Below are positions 26,546-33,238 of a stretch of DNA of 64,000 nucleotides, in pieces. Origin of the DNA: Chloroflexota bacterium (GTDB taxonomy: Bacteria; Chloroflexota; Limnocylindria; P2-11E); assembly GCA_005882255.1 (NCBI GenBank), contig VBEZ01000166.1:1-64000 (forward strand), read 5' to 3'. A program made the position numbers and the translations under genes. Under the pieces are notes generated by a model. That model saw only the letters and a program-made list of their open reading frames with translations, searched no databases and was not told the DNA's origin. Numbering within the stretch: position 1 is the first letter of the stretch; the number at the start of each line of letters is the position of its first letter.

Positions 26546-27045
26546 ATGCAGACGAGCGTCGCGCGTCGCGTCGCCCCCTCGGAGGAATGGCGCGCGTCGA
26601 TCGCGCAGCGGCTCGCCGCCGTGCAGTGGTCGGCGAGGATCGCAACGCCGCGCGACATCTCGCGGCCGAGGTGCTGCTCTGGGACTCGGAGGGCTGGCCA
26701 AAGCGCGTCGGCCTCGTCGGCGACGTGCCGGTGCGCGGCACGCCGATGGCCGACGCCGAGCGGATCCGACTTGGCGACGTCGGAGCGTGGCGCGCGTACC
26801 ATACCGCGGTGTTCGCGCGCACCGAGCGCGCGCTTGCGGCGCTTCCGCTCGACCGGTTCGCACAGAAAGCGATGGACCGGCCCCCGGCCGACAAGCTGAA
26901 GGGCTCGTTCCTCGCGCTCATCGTGCCGGAGGGCGAGATCCGCGTGAGCGACATCTGCGAGGCGTACCTGTTCCAACACGCGGTGCGGCACCTCGGCGAG
27001 CTCGAGCATGCGCGCGCGCTCGTCGGCCTCGGCGGTCTGTCCTAG
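26546..27045 (+). CDS. DinB-like superfamily protein, apparently frameshifted
   Basis: N-term in frame of 26546 (MQTSVARRVAPSEEWRASIAQRLAAVQWSAR), C-term in frame of 26587 (AARHLAAEVLLWDSEGWPKRVGL...GAWRAYHTAVFART...ICEAYLFQHAVRHLGELEHARAL). Confidence 0.5.
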
Positions 27046-27923
27046 CGGCGCAGCACCAGCCCGATCTTTCCGAACGTCTGACGCGGTTCGGCGAATACCC
27101 GCACGTCGCCCTTTCCCTCGGCGACCGCGTCCGGAGTGTGGTTCTCCGCGGCGAACTCGACCTCGCTGAGGACCGGGAAACCCTTCAGCAGACGCGTCCC
27201 CATAACGTGCACGAGATGCTGGATCGAACGGCTGTCGAACTCGTGGAAGGTCTGCTCGAGCGCACGGCGAATGAGCCCGCTCGAGATTCGGCTCCCCAGC
27301 TGCGGATCGCCGTAGCGCCAGTACGCATCCAAGCGGATCGTCAGCGGCCGGTCGACAAGGTCTGGCAGGCTCGTGTACTGATCCCGCGCGAACTGCGCGA
27401 ACGAGCTGCCGGTGGTCTTCAGCAGGCGCATGCCCTCGATCCCGCTTCGCCCTGCGGTCGCGACGATGGCGTCGGCGCGACGCTCGAAGTCCGCCTCCGA
27501 CATCGCGACGTCGCCGCGCGTCAGTCGGAAGACCACGTCGCTCTCGTCGCGCGGCCCCGGCGGCGGAGGCGAGTAGCCCGTCCGGCCCATCGGGGTGATG
27601 TGGTGCGCCGGGTCGAGCGGCACCTCGTGCGCGGTGACGCGGATGCGCTCCATCTGCGGATAGGTCCGCAACAGGCGCTGGCCGAGGAACAGCACGTATT
27701 CGTCCGGCGAGCCTCCTTCGAAGTCGGCGGCCGTCGCGTAGACGAAGTTCTTCATGGTGTCCGTGGCCACGACCTCGCGGTTGTCGCCTTCGGTGTACGC
27801 CGCGCCGAAGCGCTCGCCGAACACGTCGATCGTCACGCTGGCGGCGAACGGCGGCGCGGATCGCTTGGCGAGACGGAAGAAGATCACGCGCGTCTTCCCG
27901 TACTGGATCTCCATCGGCGTCAT
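27042..27923 (-). CDS. Urate oxidase (uricase)
   Basis: MEIQYGKTRVIFFRLAKRSA...GAAYTEGDNREVVATDTMKNFVYATA...LLKTTGSSFAQFARDQYTSLPDLVDRPLTIRLDAYWRY. Confidence 0.95.
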   Translation of the reverse strand: MTPMEIQYGKTRVIFFRLAKRSAPPFAASVTIDVFGERFGAAYTEGDNREVVATDTMKNFVYATAADFEGGSPDEYVLFLGQRLLRTYPQMERIRVTAHEVPLDPAHHITPMGRTGYSPPPPGPRDESDVVFRLTRGDVAMSEADFERRADAIVATAGRSGIEGMRLLKTTGSSFAQFARDQYTSLPDLVDRPLTIRLDAYWRYGDPQLGSRISSGLIRRALEQTFHEFDSRSIQHLVHVMGTRLLKGFPVLSEVEFAAENHTPDAVAEGKGDVRVFAEPRQTFGKIGLVLRR

Positions 27924-28372
27924 CGTGGGCGCTCCAGACGGTCGAGCGCGATGGCGAAGAACTCCTCGAGCCCGGTCCTCAGCTCCGTCTCGCGCGTGTT
28001 CGCGAGGCGCGCGCGCAGGACGGGCACGATCTCCCGCTTCGGGCGCCCTGCGACGAACACGACGAACCGGAAGCCGAACTTCCTCTCGTATGCGTCGTTG
28101 AGCTCGGCGAGCTCACGCTGTGTCGCCGCATCGGTCGCCGCGCCCTGTTCGCGCCGCGAACTGAGCGACAGCGAAGCGGGGTCGGCGCCGATGCGCGGAT
28201 GGGCGTCGAGGACCGCGATCTGCTCGACCTCGGTCATGCCCGCGAGCGTTCGGCGAGCCTTCGCGATGATCGAACGCGGCGTGTCACCGCTCGCGTGATC
28301 CAGGGCCGCGACGAGCCCCGGCGCGCGCTCGAACACCGCGGCAAGGCTTCCGGGGGGTGTATCGGATGCCAT
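27920..28372 (-). CDS. uraD: 2-oxo-4-hydroxy-4-carboxy-5-ureidoimidazoline (OHCU) decarboxylase
   Basis: IAVLDAHPRIGADP...EQGAATDAATQRELAELNDAYERKFGFRFVVFVAGRPKREIVPVLRARLANTRETEL. Confidence 0.95.
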   Translation of the reverse strand: MASDTPPGSLAAVFERAPGLVAALDHASGDTPRSIIAKARRTLAGMTEVEQIAVLDAHPRIGADPASLSLSSRREQGAATDAATQRELAELNDAYERKFGFRFVVFVAGRPKREIVPVLRARLANTRETELRTGLEEFFAIALDRLERPR

Positions 28373-28693
28373 CTAGCTGCCGAGGTACGACACGACGCCG
28401 TAGCGCGACACCAGGAGCGGGATGTGTTGATGGCCGTCGCGGAGGCGCACCTCGAGCGTCACGCTGCCGAAGAACGTGTCGAGCTGGCGAGAACGGAAGT
28501 AGGCGCCGACGTCGAAGACCAGACGGTACGTTCCGGGCTCGTGCTCCTCGCCCAGCTTGGCCAGGCGGCCGTCGGTGCCCGTCGTGCCCTTCGCCGCGAG
28601 CGTACCGTCGCGATAGAGCGCGACCTCGACGCCGGCGGCCGGCACGCCGTTGGTCGTATCGAGCACGTGCGTGGAGAGCGTCGCGCGCGCCAT
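28373..28693 (-). CDS. uraH: 5-hydroxyisourate hydrolase (transthyretin-like)
   Basis: LSTHVLDTTNGVPAAGVEVALYRDG...GTYRLVFDVGAYF...HIPLLVSRYGVVSYLGS; the usual terminal YRGS is YLGS here. Confidence 0.94.
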   Translation of the reverse strand: MARATLSTHVLDTTNGVPAAGVEVALYRDGTLAAKGTTGTDGRLAKLGEEHEPGTYRLVFDVGAYFRSRQLDTFFGSVTLEVRLRDGHQHIPLLVSRYGVVSYLGS

Positions 28694-28716
28694 CGGGCGG
28701 GTATCGTACGCCCGCG
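28694..28716. promoter_or_regulatory. Symmetric divergent promoter between uraH and the DUF3830 gene, no room for leaders
   Basis: CATCGGGCGGGTATCGTACGCCCGCGATG: only 23 bp between start codons; TATCGT (+) and TACGAT (-) each 9 nt from its start codon; whole segment quasi-palindromic. Confidence 0.6.
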
Positions 28717-29130
28717 ATGAAGATGCTCCGCATCACTGCCGGCCCGTACACGTTCAAGGCGCGTTGGGAAGAGAAGGCGGCGCCGAAGACCGTCGCGGCG
28801 ATCCGACGGATGCTGCCTCTCCGGAGCAAGCTCGTGCACGTGCGCTGGAGCGGGGAGTCCACGTGGGTCCCGATGGGCGAGAAGCGCCTGGGCGTCGACT
28901 TCGAGAATCACACGAGTCATCCCGCGCCGGGGGAGATCCTCGTGTACCCCGGTGGCATCTCCGAAATGGAGATCCTCTTTCCATACGGCGCGTGCCTCTT
29001 CGCGAGCAAGGTCGGGCAGCTCGCGGGCAATCACTTCGCGACGGTGATCGAAGGCAACGAGAATCTCGCGGAGATCGGCCGCCTCACGCTCTGGGAGGGC
29101 GCGCAGGACTTCCTCATCGAAGAGGTCTAG
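28717..29130 (+). CDS. DUF3830 family (cyclophilin-like) protein in ureide catabolism cluster
   Basis: MKMLRITAGPYTFKARWEEKAAPKTVAAIRRMLPLRSKLVHVRWSGESTWVPMGE...HPAPGEILVYPGGISEMEILFPYG. Confidence 0.75.
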   Translation: MKMLRITAGPYTFKARWEEKAAPKTVAAIRRMLPLRSKLVHVRWSGESTWVPMGEKRLGVDFENHTSHPAPGEILVYPGGISEMEILFPYGACLFASKVGQLAGNHFATVIEGNENLAEIGRLTLWEGAQDFLIEEV

Positions 29131-29200
29131 GACGGCCACCGCAGATCTCGCGATCCGCGGTGGGCGCGTCGTCACCGAAGAAGGCGTTCGCGAGGCCGAT

Positions 29201-30508
29201 GTGCTCATCGCGGGCGGCCTCTTCGACGCCGTCGTCGACCCGGGCCACGGCAAAGCGTTCGACGAGATCGAGGCGCGCGGCCTGCATGTGTTCCCCGGCG
29301 TCGTCGACGCGCACGTCCACGTCAACGAGCCGGGCCGCGAGGAGTGGGAGGGCTGGCGCGCCGCCACGCGCGGGGCCGCGGCTGGGGGCGTGACGACGCT
29401 GGCCGACATGCCGCTCAACTCGCTACCGCCGACCGTCGACGAGGACGCGCTTCGCGCGAAGGAGTCGAGCGCCGCGCGGTCCGCGATCATCGACTACGCG
29501 CTGTGGGGCGGCCTCACCGGCCCGGATCAGATGTCGCTGCCGAGCCTCATGGTGCACGGCGTCGTTGGCCTGAAAGCATTCCTGTGTCCGAGCGGCGTCC
29601 CGGAGTTCCCGCATCTCGACGCGTCCACGCTCGGGCCCGCGCTCGCTGCGGCCGCAGCGGCCGGGCACCTGGTCGCGGTCCACGCCGAGGACGAGGCGCT
29701 CGTGCTCAAGGGGACCGAGCAGCTGCAGGCCATGAATCGCCGCGACCGGGCCGCCTGGCTCGAGTCCCGGCCGCCGGCGGCGGAGCGTCGCGCGATCGAG
29801 CGGCTCAGCGACGCCGCGCGCGAAACACGCGCACGCGTGCACGTCGTGCACGCGTCGAGCTCCGCGGCGGTGACCGCGGTGCATCGAGCGCGCGAGCGTG
29901 GCGCCGACATCACCGTAGAGACGTGCCCGCACTACCTCTTGTTCAGCGCCGAGGATGTCGACCGCATCGGACCGGCACTCAAGTGCGCACCGCCGATCCG
30001 TGACGCCACGTCCCGCGAGCGCCTGTGGCAGCACGTGCTATCCGGGGAGATCGATCTCGTCGCGTCCGATCACTCGCCCTGCACGGCCGACCTCAAGACA
30101 CGCGGCGACGACGACATCTGGGAGGCCTGGGGCGGTGTGACCGGGATCCAGTCGCTGCTTCCCGTCATGCTCAGCGATGGCGTGCACCGGCGTGGCCTGC
30201 GGCTCGCGGCGCTCGTGCGGCTCGTCTCGGGCGCGCCGGCGCGACTCCTCGGGCTGTGGCCGAAGAAGGGCGCGATCCGCGCCGGAGCGGACGCGGACGT
30301 CGCGCTCGTCGCGCTCGAGCGCGAATGGACGCTCGAAGCGGAGCAGCTCCAGGCGCGCAGCGGCGTCAGTCCGTACGTCGGGCGATCGTTCCGCGGAGCG
30401 GTCGTGCGCACGCTGGTGCGCGGCATCACGGTGTTCGACGACGGCGAATTCCCGGAAGACGCCGGGCGCAGCCGTGTCGGTCGCCTTGTGACGAGAATGG
30501 GAACGTGA
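29201..30508 (+). CDS. allB: Allantoinase; true start probably upstream of 29201
   Basis: HVFPGVVDAHVHVNEPGREEWEGWRAATRGAAAGGVTTLADMPLNSLPPTVD; ASDHSPCTADLK. In-frame upstream residues RTATADLAIRGGRVVTEEGVREAD match the expected amidohydrolase N-terminus but contain no ATG/GTG/TTG. Confidence 0.92.
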   Translation: MLIAGGLFDAVVDPGHGKAFDEIEARGLHVFPGVVDAHVHVNEPGREEWEGWRAATRGAAAGGVTTLADMPLNSLPPTVDEDALRAKESSAARSAIIDYALWGGLTGPDQMSLPSLMVHGVVGLKAFLCPSGVPEFPHLDASTLGPALAAAAAAGHLVAVHAEDEALVLKGTEQLQAMNRRDRAAWLESRPPAAERRAIERLSDAARETRARVHVVHASSSAAVTAVHRARERGADITVETCPHYLLFSAEDVDRIGPALKCAPPIRDATSRERLWQHVLSGEIDLVASDHSPCTADLKTRGDDDIWEAWGGVTGIQSLLPVMLSDGVHRRGLRLAALVRLVSGAPARLLGLWPKKGAIRAGADADVALVALEREWTLEAEQLQARSGVSPYVGRSFRGAVVRTLVRGITVFDDGEFPEDAGRSRVGRLVTRMGT

Positions 30509-31749
30509 GGACCGCGGAGTTGGTCGCGATCGATGAACGGCGATTGCTGCGCCGTCTCGACGAGCTCGCGCAACGCGGAGCGCTACCCGGCGGCGGACTC
30601 TACCGCGCGCTGTACACGCCCGCGTGGGTCTCCGCGACCGAGCTCGTCTCGGGCTGGATGAAAGAGGCGGGCCTGCTCGTGCGCCGCGACGCCGTCGGCA
30701 ATGTCTGGGGACGCGTCGAAGGCTCGCGCGGCGGTCGCGCGATCGTGACCGGCTCGCACATCGACACGGTGCGCGGCGGCGGCGCCCTCGACGGAGCGCT
30801 CGGCGTCGTCGCCGCGGTCGAGGCGGTCGCCAGCCTGGTCTCGCAGCTCGGTCGGCCGCTACGCATCCTCGAGGCGGTCGCCATCTGTGAGGAGGAGGGC
30901 AGCCGCTTCAACACGAACTTCTGGGGCGCGCGCGCGATCGCCGACCGCATCGAGCCCGACGAAGCCTCGCGCGCACGCGACGCCGACGGCGTCACGCTGG
31001 CCGACGCGATGCGTGGCGTGGGTCTCGATCCCGCGAACGTCGCTCAGGCGATCCGCCGCGACATCGACACGTTCGTCGAGCTGCACGTCGAGCAGGGCCC
31101 GATCCTCGAGGAGGAGGGCCCGCGTCTCGGCGTCGTACGGACGATCGTGGGCACCGCGCATCTCGAGGTGGTCGTCCGCGGGCAGCCGGATCACGCCGGC
31201 GCTACCGCCATGGATCGCCGGCGCGATGCGCTTCTCGGCGCGTCAGCCATGATGCTCGCGATCGCCGACGTGGCGCGCGAGATGGGCCCGCCCGCGGTCG
31301 CGACCGTCGGAACGATCGCCGTCGAGCCCGCGCAGGTGAACGTCGTGCCGGGTCTGGCGCGCTTCACCGTTGACGCGCGCCATAGCGACAACGCGCAGCG
31401 GACGCTGCTCGTCGCGGACATCACGAGGGTGTGCAAGGTCGCTGGTCGGGAGCGCGACCTCTCGGTCGACGTGCGCACGCTCCGCGACCGACCGGCGGTC
31501 CAGCTGAACGAGCGCGCCGCCGACGTCGCCCGGCGGGCGTGCCTCGCGTGCGGCGTCGCGCCGCGTGACATGACGAGCGGCGCCGGTCATGACGCGCAGG
31601 TGCTCAGCGCCGCCGCGCACGCCGCGATGATCTTCGTCCCGAGCATCGGTGGTCGTTCGCACTGCCCGGAGGAGGCGACTGCGGCCGAGGACGTCATCCT
31701 CGGAACGCGAGCGCTCGCGGCCGCGCTGCGCGATCTGGCGTACTCGTAA
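30505..31749 (+). CDS. allC: Allantoate amidohydrolase / M20-family N-carbamoyl amino-acid hydrolase-like
   Basis: GSHIDTVRGGGALDGALGVVAAVEAV, EEEGSRFNTNFWGARA, ELHVEQGPILEEEG, GQPDHAGATAMDRRRDAL, SGAGHDAQVLS; GTGA overlap with allantoinase. Confidence 0.9.
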   Translation: MRTAELVAIDERRLLRRLDELAQRGALPGGGLYRALYTPAWVSATELVSGWMKEAGLLVRRDAVGNVWGRVEGSRGGRAIVTGSHIDTVRGGGALDGALGVVAAVEAVASLVSQLGRPLRILEAVAICEEEGSRFNTNFWGARAIADRIEPDEASRARDADGVTLADAMRGVGLDPANVAQAIRRDIDTFVELHVEQGPILEEEGPRLGVVRTIVGTAHLEVVVRGQPDHAGATAMDRRRDALLGASAMMLAIADVAREMGPPAVATVGTIAVEPAQVNVVPGLARFTVDARHSDNAQRTLLVADITRVCKVAGRERDLSVDVRTLRDRPAVQLNERAADVARRACLACGVAPRDMTSGAGHDAQVLSAAAHAAMIFVPSIGGRSHCPEEATAAEDVILGTRALAAALRDLAYS

Positions 31750-31915: not shown

Positions 31916-33238
31916 ATGGCGATCCTGCTGCGCGGCGGAACGCTCCTCCCGATGGCCGACGGCGGTCGCGCGATCGCCGGGGACGTGCTCGTGAGCGGCG
32001 CGCGTATCGCGCAGATCGGCACGGTCGAGCAGACGCCACCGGACACGGAGATCGTCGACTGCTCGGGCTGCTATCTCCTGCCCGGGCTGGTGCAGACGCA
32101 CGTGCACCTGGTGCAGACGATCTTCCGCGGCCTCGCGGAAGACCTCGGACTCCTCGATTGGCTGCGCCGCTTCATCTGGCCGCTCGAGGCCGCGCACGAC
32201 GAGGCGTCGGTGCGCGCGTGCGTGCGTCTCGGCCTCGGCGAGCTCATCACCACCGGGACGACGACGATCCTCGACATGGGCACAACGCGCTGGGGCGACG
32301 TCGTCGCGGAGGAGCTGGTGCGGTCGGGCATCCGCGCGCGGTTCGGTCAGGCGATGATGGACACTGGAGAAAACGTTCCGGCCGACCTGGTCGAGAGCAC
32401 GCGCGACTCGCTCGACGCGAGCGCGGGTCTGGTGAAGCGCTGGAGCAAAGCCGGCGCCGGCCGCATCGCCTACGCGTACGCGCCACGCTTCGCGCTCTCG
32501 TGCACGCGCGAGCTACTCGAGGCGGTCGGCATGCTCGCCAAGCTGAGCGAGACGCTCGTGCACACGCACTCGAACGAGAGCGCAGAGGAGCGCTCCGCGG
32601 TGCAGGGCGTGACGGGGATGTCGCCGATCGGCTACCTCGCGCAGGTCGGCATCGCGACGCCGCGGACCGTGATCGCGCACGGCGTTCACGTCGATGACGC
32701 GGAGCTGCAGATCCTCCGCGAGAGCGGAAGCGCGGTGACCCATTGCCCGTCATCGAACCTCAAGCTCGGCTCGGGCGTCGCTGACGTCGTCCGCCTGCGG
32801 CAGGCACGCGTGATCGTCGGCATCGGCGCCGATGGCGCGGCCTGCAACAACGAGCTCGATGGGTTCGAGGAAGTTCGCCTCGCCACCCTCCTCGCCCGCA
32901 CGCTGCGCGGGCAGGGCGCGCTCACCGCCGCCGACGCGCTCGGTATGGCGACGCGCGAGGGAGCGCGGGCGCTGCACCTCGAGGCGGAGACCGGCACGCT
33001 GGAGGTCGGCCGGCGCGCCGACATCGTCGTGATCGACAGCGAGCGGCTCGCGGGGCCCGGCGGTGATCCCGTTGCGCGGATCGTGTTCGGCGGCGGTTCG
33101 CGCGGAGTACGCGACGTCCTCGTCGACGGCACGCTGCTCGTCCGCGGTGGTGTGCCACTCCTCTTCGATCCGGGTGAGGTCCGCGCGAAGGCCGCCGAGG
33201 TCTTGCCCGCCCTGCTCGGGCGCGCGCAGGTCGCCTAG
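31916..33238 (+). CDS. Amidohydrolase (guanine/8-oxoguanine deaminase or MtaD/TrzN-like)
   Basis: LLPGLVQTHVHLVQTIFRGLAEDLGLLDWLRRFIWPLEAAHDEASV, HTHSNESAEE, HCPSSNLKLGSGVADV, GIGADGAACNNELDGFEE. Confidence 0.85.
   Translation: MAILLRGGTLLPMADGGRAIAGDVLVSGARIAQIGTVEQTPPDTEIVDCSGCYLLPGLVQTHVHLVQTIFRGLAEDLGLLDWLRRFIWPLEAAHDEASVRACVRLGLGELITTGTTTILDMGTTRWGDVVAEELVRSGIRARFGQAMMDTGENVPADLVESTRDSLDASAGLVKRWSKAGAGRIAYAYAPRFALSCTRELLEAVGMLAKLSETLVHTHSNESAEERSAVQGVTGMSPIGYLAQVGIATPRTVIAHGVHVDDAELQILRESGSAVTHCPSSNLKLGSGVADVVRLRQARVIVGIGADGAACNNELDGFEEVRLATLLARTLRGQGALTAADALGMATREGARALHLEAETGTLEVGRRADIVVIDSERLAGPGGDPVARIVFGGGSRGVRDVLVDGTLLVRGGVPLLFDPGEVRAKAAEVLPALLGRAQVA

Follow-up and report, generated by a model that had tools for sequence, protein, structure and literature searches.

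Gene content and layout of the locus

The window analysed here, a stretch of 64,000 nucleotides, belongs to a genome (G000) represented by a 2.67-Mb assembly of 252 contigs with a GC content of about 70%, and the named relatives of this genome are soil Chloroflexota MAGs. At the locus under study, uraH starts at position 28693 on the minus strand and a DUF3830 gene at 28717 on the plus strand, a divergent pair with 23 bp between the two start codons. The 29-mer CATCGGGCGGGTATCGTACGCCCGCGATG (28691-28719) spans this gap and carries the ATG of uraH and that of the DUF3830 gene at its two ends. The features of the locus are as follows:

27042..27923, minus strand: urate oxidase (uricase); TIGR03383, 174.8 bits (cut-off 168.4)
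27920..28372, minus strand: uraD, OHCU decarboxylase; Pfam PF09349, E 1.1e-35
28373..28693, minus strand: uraH, 5-hydroxyisourate hydrolase (HIU hydrolase/transthyretin family); Pfam PF00576, E 5.6e-25; TIGR02962, 91 bits (cut-off 87.45)
28694..28716, no strand assigned: predicted shared promoter, filling the 23 bp that separate the uraH and DUF3830 start codons; conserved junction
28702..28707, plus strand: TATCGT, predicted -10 box of the DUF3830 operon; ends 9 nt before the ATG; supported by the genome-wide TANNNT peak and by TANNNT at 6-10 nt in 69/72 class loci
28703..28708, minus strand: TACGAT, predicted -10 box of the uraH operon; ends 9 nt before the ATG; TANNNT kept in 19/20 divergent junctions of families f1 and f2
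28717..29130, plus strand: DUF3830 protein of 137 aa, leading the plus-strand operon; Pfam PF12903, E 1.1e-31
29132..30508, plus strand: allantoinase; TIGR03178, 495.7 bits (cut-off 357.85); start uncertain, ACG at 29132 or GTG at 29201
30505..31749, plus strand: allantoate amidohydrolase-family enzyme, overlapping the allantoinase stop; TIGR01879, 383.4 bits (cut-off 204)
31916..33238, plus strand: amidohydrolase/deaminase, operon membership uncertain; Pfam PF01979, E 8.5e-57; best NCBIfam models below cut-off

The gene order is uraH, uraD and urate oxidase on the minus strand, and DUF3830, allantoinase and the allantoate amidohydrolase-family gene on the plus strand; the top match of the latter's product is the allantoate deiminase model, with a score under that model's cut-off (NCBIfam). 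The deaminase gene at 31916 (+) is separated from the gene upstream by 166 bp and may be transcribed from a promoter of its own. Head-to-head uricase-side and allantoin-side genes, as found here, are known from divergent purine-catabolism operons that have a regulatory region between them; relative to such systems, and judging from general knowledge, the present locus differs in having 23 bp between its start codons and a cluster in which no regulator gene was recognised. An Rfam search returned no match at the junction.

The start codons of uraH and DUF3830 are credible, because LSTHVLD, a motif of HIU hydrolases, begins after five residues of the uraH product, and because the DUF3830 start is kept in relatives, in which a second ATG two codons further on is not always kept. 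The allantoinase frame has no ATG, GTG or TTG at the homologous start, either in the window (29132) or at the same place in L003; the ACG located one base past the DUF3830 stop is its likely start position and is kept in the nearest relative.

Two overlapping -10 boxes on opposite strands

The heptamer TATCGTA (28702-28708; TANNNTA) combines a -10 box for each strand, the two being shifted by one base: TATCGT reads towards DUF3830 and TACGAT towards uraH. The original prediction had described the 29-mer with start codons at its ends and a hexamer 9 nt before each of them, and all of these elements were found in place. The -7 base on one strand is paired with the -11 base on the other, and vice versa (reciprocal -7T/-11A); this pairing, together with an 18-bp geometry, is reported as the commonest arrangement at bacterial bidirectional promoters (PMC10268837, PMC12825309). 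At the usual 7-bp spacing the start sites are predicted at 28714 and 28696, 18 bp apart, and if the start codons themselves served as start sites the separation would be 24 bp; the overall predicted range of 18-24 bp can be set beside the 7-25 bp of published bidirectional promoters (PMC10268837, PMC12825309). At the ideal 7-bp spacing the base at -18 is not T on either strand, this T being a common, non-required feature of bidirectional promoters. Two properties count against a promoter reading, namely that TATCGT and TACGAT each match the E. coli consensus at only four of six positions, and that a -10 box normally lies 6-7 nt from its start site, less than the 9 nt seen here.

On both strands, the 9-nt distance falls within the 6-10 nt window typical of this genome's own TANNNT boxes, and no Shine-Dalgarno site precedes DUF3830 in the window or uraH in the window's family (f1) and its sister family (f2). 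The original prediction had proposed that both transcripts lack any 5' UTR; leaderless-type -10 boxes are indeed present on both strands, and strict absence of a leader is too narrow a statement, since 9 nt also fits a leader of 1-3 nt.

TANNNT boxes before predicted starts across the genome

The genome-wide frequency of such boxes was assessed in a sample comprising 1.23 Mb of the 2.67-Mb G000 assembly and 0.4 Mb of G032, a genome from another family of the class. Genes were called by our own codon-usage method, which is blind to upstream signals and places starts imprecisely, and TANNNT was counted by its distance to the predicted start. Among the divergent genes of G000 (n=326), TANNNT occurred 29, 14, 12, 14 and 7 times at 6, 7, 8, 9 and 10 nt before the start, against a background of 0-2 at 0-5 nt and 0-3 from 11 to 23 nt, and the same 6-10 nt peak was seen in G032. 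Because of this peak in G000, the -10 reading of the junction hexamers amounts to more than chance resemblance.

About a fifth of the non-operon starts of G000 (130/680) have TANNNT at 6-10 nt, and no -35 consensus was found upstream of these 130 starts; Shine-Dalgarno-like sites are likewise enriched before predicted starts. From the enrichment of TANNNT, leaderless promoters of this type are predicted to be a general device of this lineage. The leaderless-type share in G000 is well above the 4.7% given for Chloroflexi in a 2011 survey, in which the phylum is entered with 4/12 genomes and that percentage as the mean of leaderless genes (PMC3160421).

Overlapping TANNNT boxes on both strands were present in 4/22 divergent gaps of 10-40 bp in the G000 sample, and three of these four are TANNNTA heptamers. 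One is the uraH/DUF3830 junction; the other two lie between a hexapeptide transferase gene and a DAHP synthase gene (L048:457-481, gap 23 bp) and between a chromate transporter gene and a DUF72 gene (L152:2145-2165, gap 19 bp), both pairs being divergent. To judge by these sequences, the shared-TANNNTA architecture recurs in G000 between genes without obvious common function. Start triplets of any kind flanking TANNNTA on both sides were not clearly over-represented at 6-10 nt (5, compared with 1-4 at other distances); an excess is visible with predicted gene starts only, and the any-triplet count was not relied on.

Conservation of the junction in families f1 and f2

The comparison covered 72 DUF3830 loci from the class, most with a divergent uraH, and 69 of them have TANNNT 6-10 nt before DUF3830. 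In the f1 and f2 families, both strands carry TANNNT at 19 of 20 divergent uraH/DUF3830 junctions, the box on the uraH strand lying 9-12 nt from the uraH start, and none of these junctions has a Shine-Dalgarno site before uraH. Family f2 has TATAGTA where f1 has TATCGTA. Across the two main genera, g1 and g5 (15 genomes), 14 consecutive junction bases, TATCGTACGCCCGC, do not vary. Of the 19 four-fold synonymous sites in the neighbouring stretch of the DUF3830 gene, by comparison, none is invariant in the same 15 genomes, and their mean pairwise identity is 0.51. The original prediction, for which poor conservation would have been damaging, thus survives the comparison with relatives: both boxes persist in 19/20 junctions and 14 bases do not vary. 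Together with the genome-wide TANNNT peak, this conservation supports the proposed bidirectional core with two leaderless-type -10 boxes. Two observations count against it: in genus g5 the spacing between the uraH start codon and its -10 box is mostly 11 nt, which borders on the limit of the range seen across the genome, and the relative L019 has CACGAT, with no TANNNT on the uraH strand.

A locus within the family (L080; same place as L016) in which uraH was not found upstream of DUF3830 keeps TATCCTA 9 nt before DUF3830.

It is highly improbable that the block reflects chance or coding conservation, with DUF3830 (or uraH) starting further upstream. The DUF3830 frame is indeed open upstream, forming a 286-codon open frame, but the distance from TATCGT to the DUF3830 start takes the values 7, 9 and 10 in f1, the start-to-start gap also shifts between relatives by non-multiples of three, and every block position is invariant in g1 and g5, without third-position variation. 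Such shifts in the distance to the start and in the gap do not preserve a reading frame, so a coding role does not account for the block.

The invariant bases extend beyond the two boxes on the DUF3830 side only, where ACGCCCGC (28708-28715), between the -10 box and the start, does not vary in the 15 genomes of g1 and g5. Its first base completes the minus-strand -10 box; the invariance of the rest goes beyond what two -10 boxes explain and may reflect a discriminator, a start region or a bound factor.

The original prediction had also taken the 23-mer as quasi-palindromic and argued that a regulator bound there would block both operons. The palindromy of the 23-mer as a whole is weak (14/23 columns, shuffle p = 0.034), 2.6% of the 23-mers of G000 are equally palindromic or better, and the CAT...ATG ends of the junction are forced by two divergent ATG starts. 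Meaningful symmetry is confined to the core GTATCGTAC, and the outer arms differ between relatives; the symmetry claim therefore holds for the core alone, and we rejected the whole-23-mer palindrome as operator evidence on account of its p value and its unconserved arms.

It seems quite unlikely to us that a dedicated purine-catabolism regulator uses the symmetric core as its operator, the likeness of the core to -10 boxes being secondary, even though GTATCGTAC is symmetric and the invariant block reaches into ACGCCCGC, past the -10 boxes. The 14-mer has one exact copy in the genome and one more at one mismatch, and at up to two mismatches its 29 copies, compared with 12 for a backwards control, outline no clear regulon; GTATCGTAC itself was found at two places in 1.23 Mb. 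Other families of the class lose the symmetry and keep the plus-strand TANNNT. An operator with a regulon was accordingly rejected, given the variable arms and the single exact copy of the 14-mer, and with no regulator gene recognised in the cluster the suggested joint block by a bound regulator found no support.

A -10 box facing a Shine-Dalgarno site in other families

In families f3 and f4 the -10 box of DUF3830 is mostly TATCCT. At 34 loci, TATCCT followed by CC makes TATCCTCC on the plus strand, which reads as GGAGGATA on the other, and in these f3/f4 loci (for example L029, L024 and L266) GGAGGATA serves uraH as a Shine-Dalgarno site at a distance of 3-8 nt from its start. CCTCC is absent in the 17 loci without such a site serving uraH, and TATCCT itself often remains in them. 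From this pattern, the fixed element appears to be the -10 box of one strand, and its opposite-strand partner either a second -10 box or a ribosome-binding site. Across the short divergent junctions of G000 and G032, overlap of a -10 box with a Shine-Dalgarno site was not seen as a genome-wide habit, and in these comparisons it appears to be a feature of the uraH/DUF3830 junction.

These families also speak for the view that the plus-strand box is the sole promoter, TACGAT arising merely because -10 boxes are nearly symmetric and the uraH promoter lying inside the DUF3830 gene: outside the f1/f2 order the plus-strand -10 box is kept and the minus strand has a Shine-Dalgarno site, which needs a transcription start upstream, and the spacing to uraH is looser (9-12 nt). 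We consider this view unlikely, given that uraH in f1 and f2 lacks a Shine-Dalgarno site and has TANNNT on its strand in 19/20 junctions, and that the A at 28708, which completes the minus-strand box, is kept in f1 and f2 and is never A among the f3/f4 junctions listed.

A more speculative proposal, which we regard as doubtful, treats the junction as a strand-dual code built around one -10 box, -10/-10 in the f1/f2 order and -10/Shine-Dalgarno elsewhere. In the symmetric form, polymerases competing for that box would couple the expression of the uricase and allantoin halves, and no regulator would be needed.

A probable single promoter for two leaderless or near-leaderless operons

The reading that we favour, with a probability of roughly 85%, takes the 23-bp junction as one bidirectional promoter of the sigma-70 type, from which both transcripts would be leaderless or near-leaderless. 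We infer transcription in both directions: through the offset opposite-strand -10 boxes of TATCGTA, RNA polymerase would bind in either orientation, each transcript would begin no more than about 3 nt from its start codon, and the two polymerase orientations would compete for one box. With no Shine-Dalgarno site, the first genes of both operons would be translated from mRNAs with little or no leader.

Warman et al. 2021 (cited in PMC10268837 and PMC12825309) described bidirectional promoters built on a symmetric -10 element that both strands share. On the basis of sequence, the junction is best classed as an unusually compact promoter of this Warman/Grainger type with both mRNAs (nearly) leaderless. 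As such promoters are presented in the two citing papers, it has in common with them the opposite-strand -10 pair on a short core, the -7T/-11A pairing and the start-site spacing (predicted 18-24 bp here, published 7-25 bp); it differs in that both transcripts are predicted to be leaderless mRNAs of pathway genes and in lacking a T at -18, and the published cases are defined by mapped start sites. Leaderless genes with TANNNT have been described for Deinococcus-Thermus and Actinobacteria (PMC3160421, PMC12340547), and they share with our locus a TANNNT lying about 12 nt upstream of the start codon and the absence of a Shine-Dalgarno site and of a visible -35 element; here, by contrast, the organism belongs to the Chloroflexota and one box would serve two divergent genes. 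The ingredients, a shared -10 and a leaderless -10, are therefore known, and what is new is their combination at 23 bp and the alternation of -10/-10 with -10/Shine-Dalgarno within one class.

The junction would illustrate how compact a divergent promoter can be, its start codons 23 bp apart and both leaders minimal or absent, and the class offers a natural series in which one conserved -10 box meets a changing opposite-strand partner (-10 or Shine-Dalgarno). The indication that leaderless expression is common in this little-studied class of Chloroflexota bears on gene calling and on expression design.

Relatives outside the class

Most relatives from outside the class show a different gene neighbourhood or ordinary leaders. 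Three Gemmatimonadota MAGs (L078, L079 and L081) carry a DUF3830 gene 72-74% identical to that of the window, possibly through horizontal transfer, and in all three the divergent uraH overlaps or abuts the DUF3830 start.
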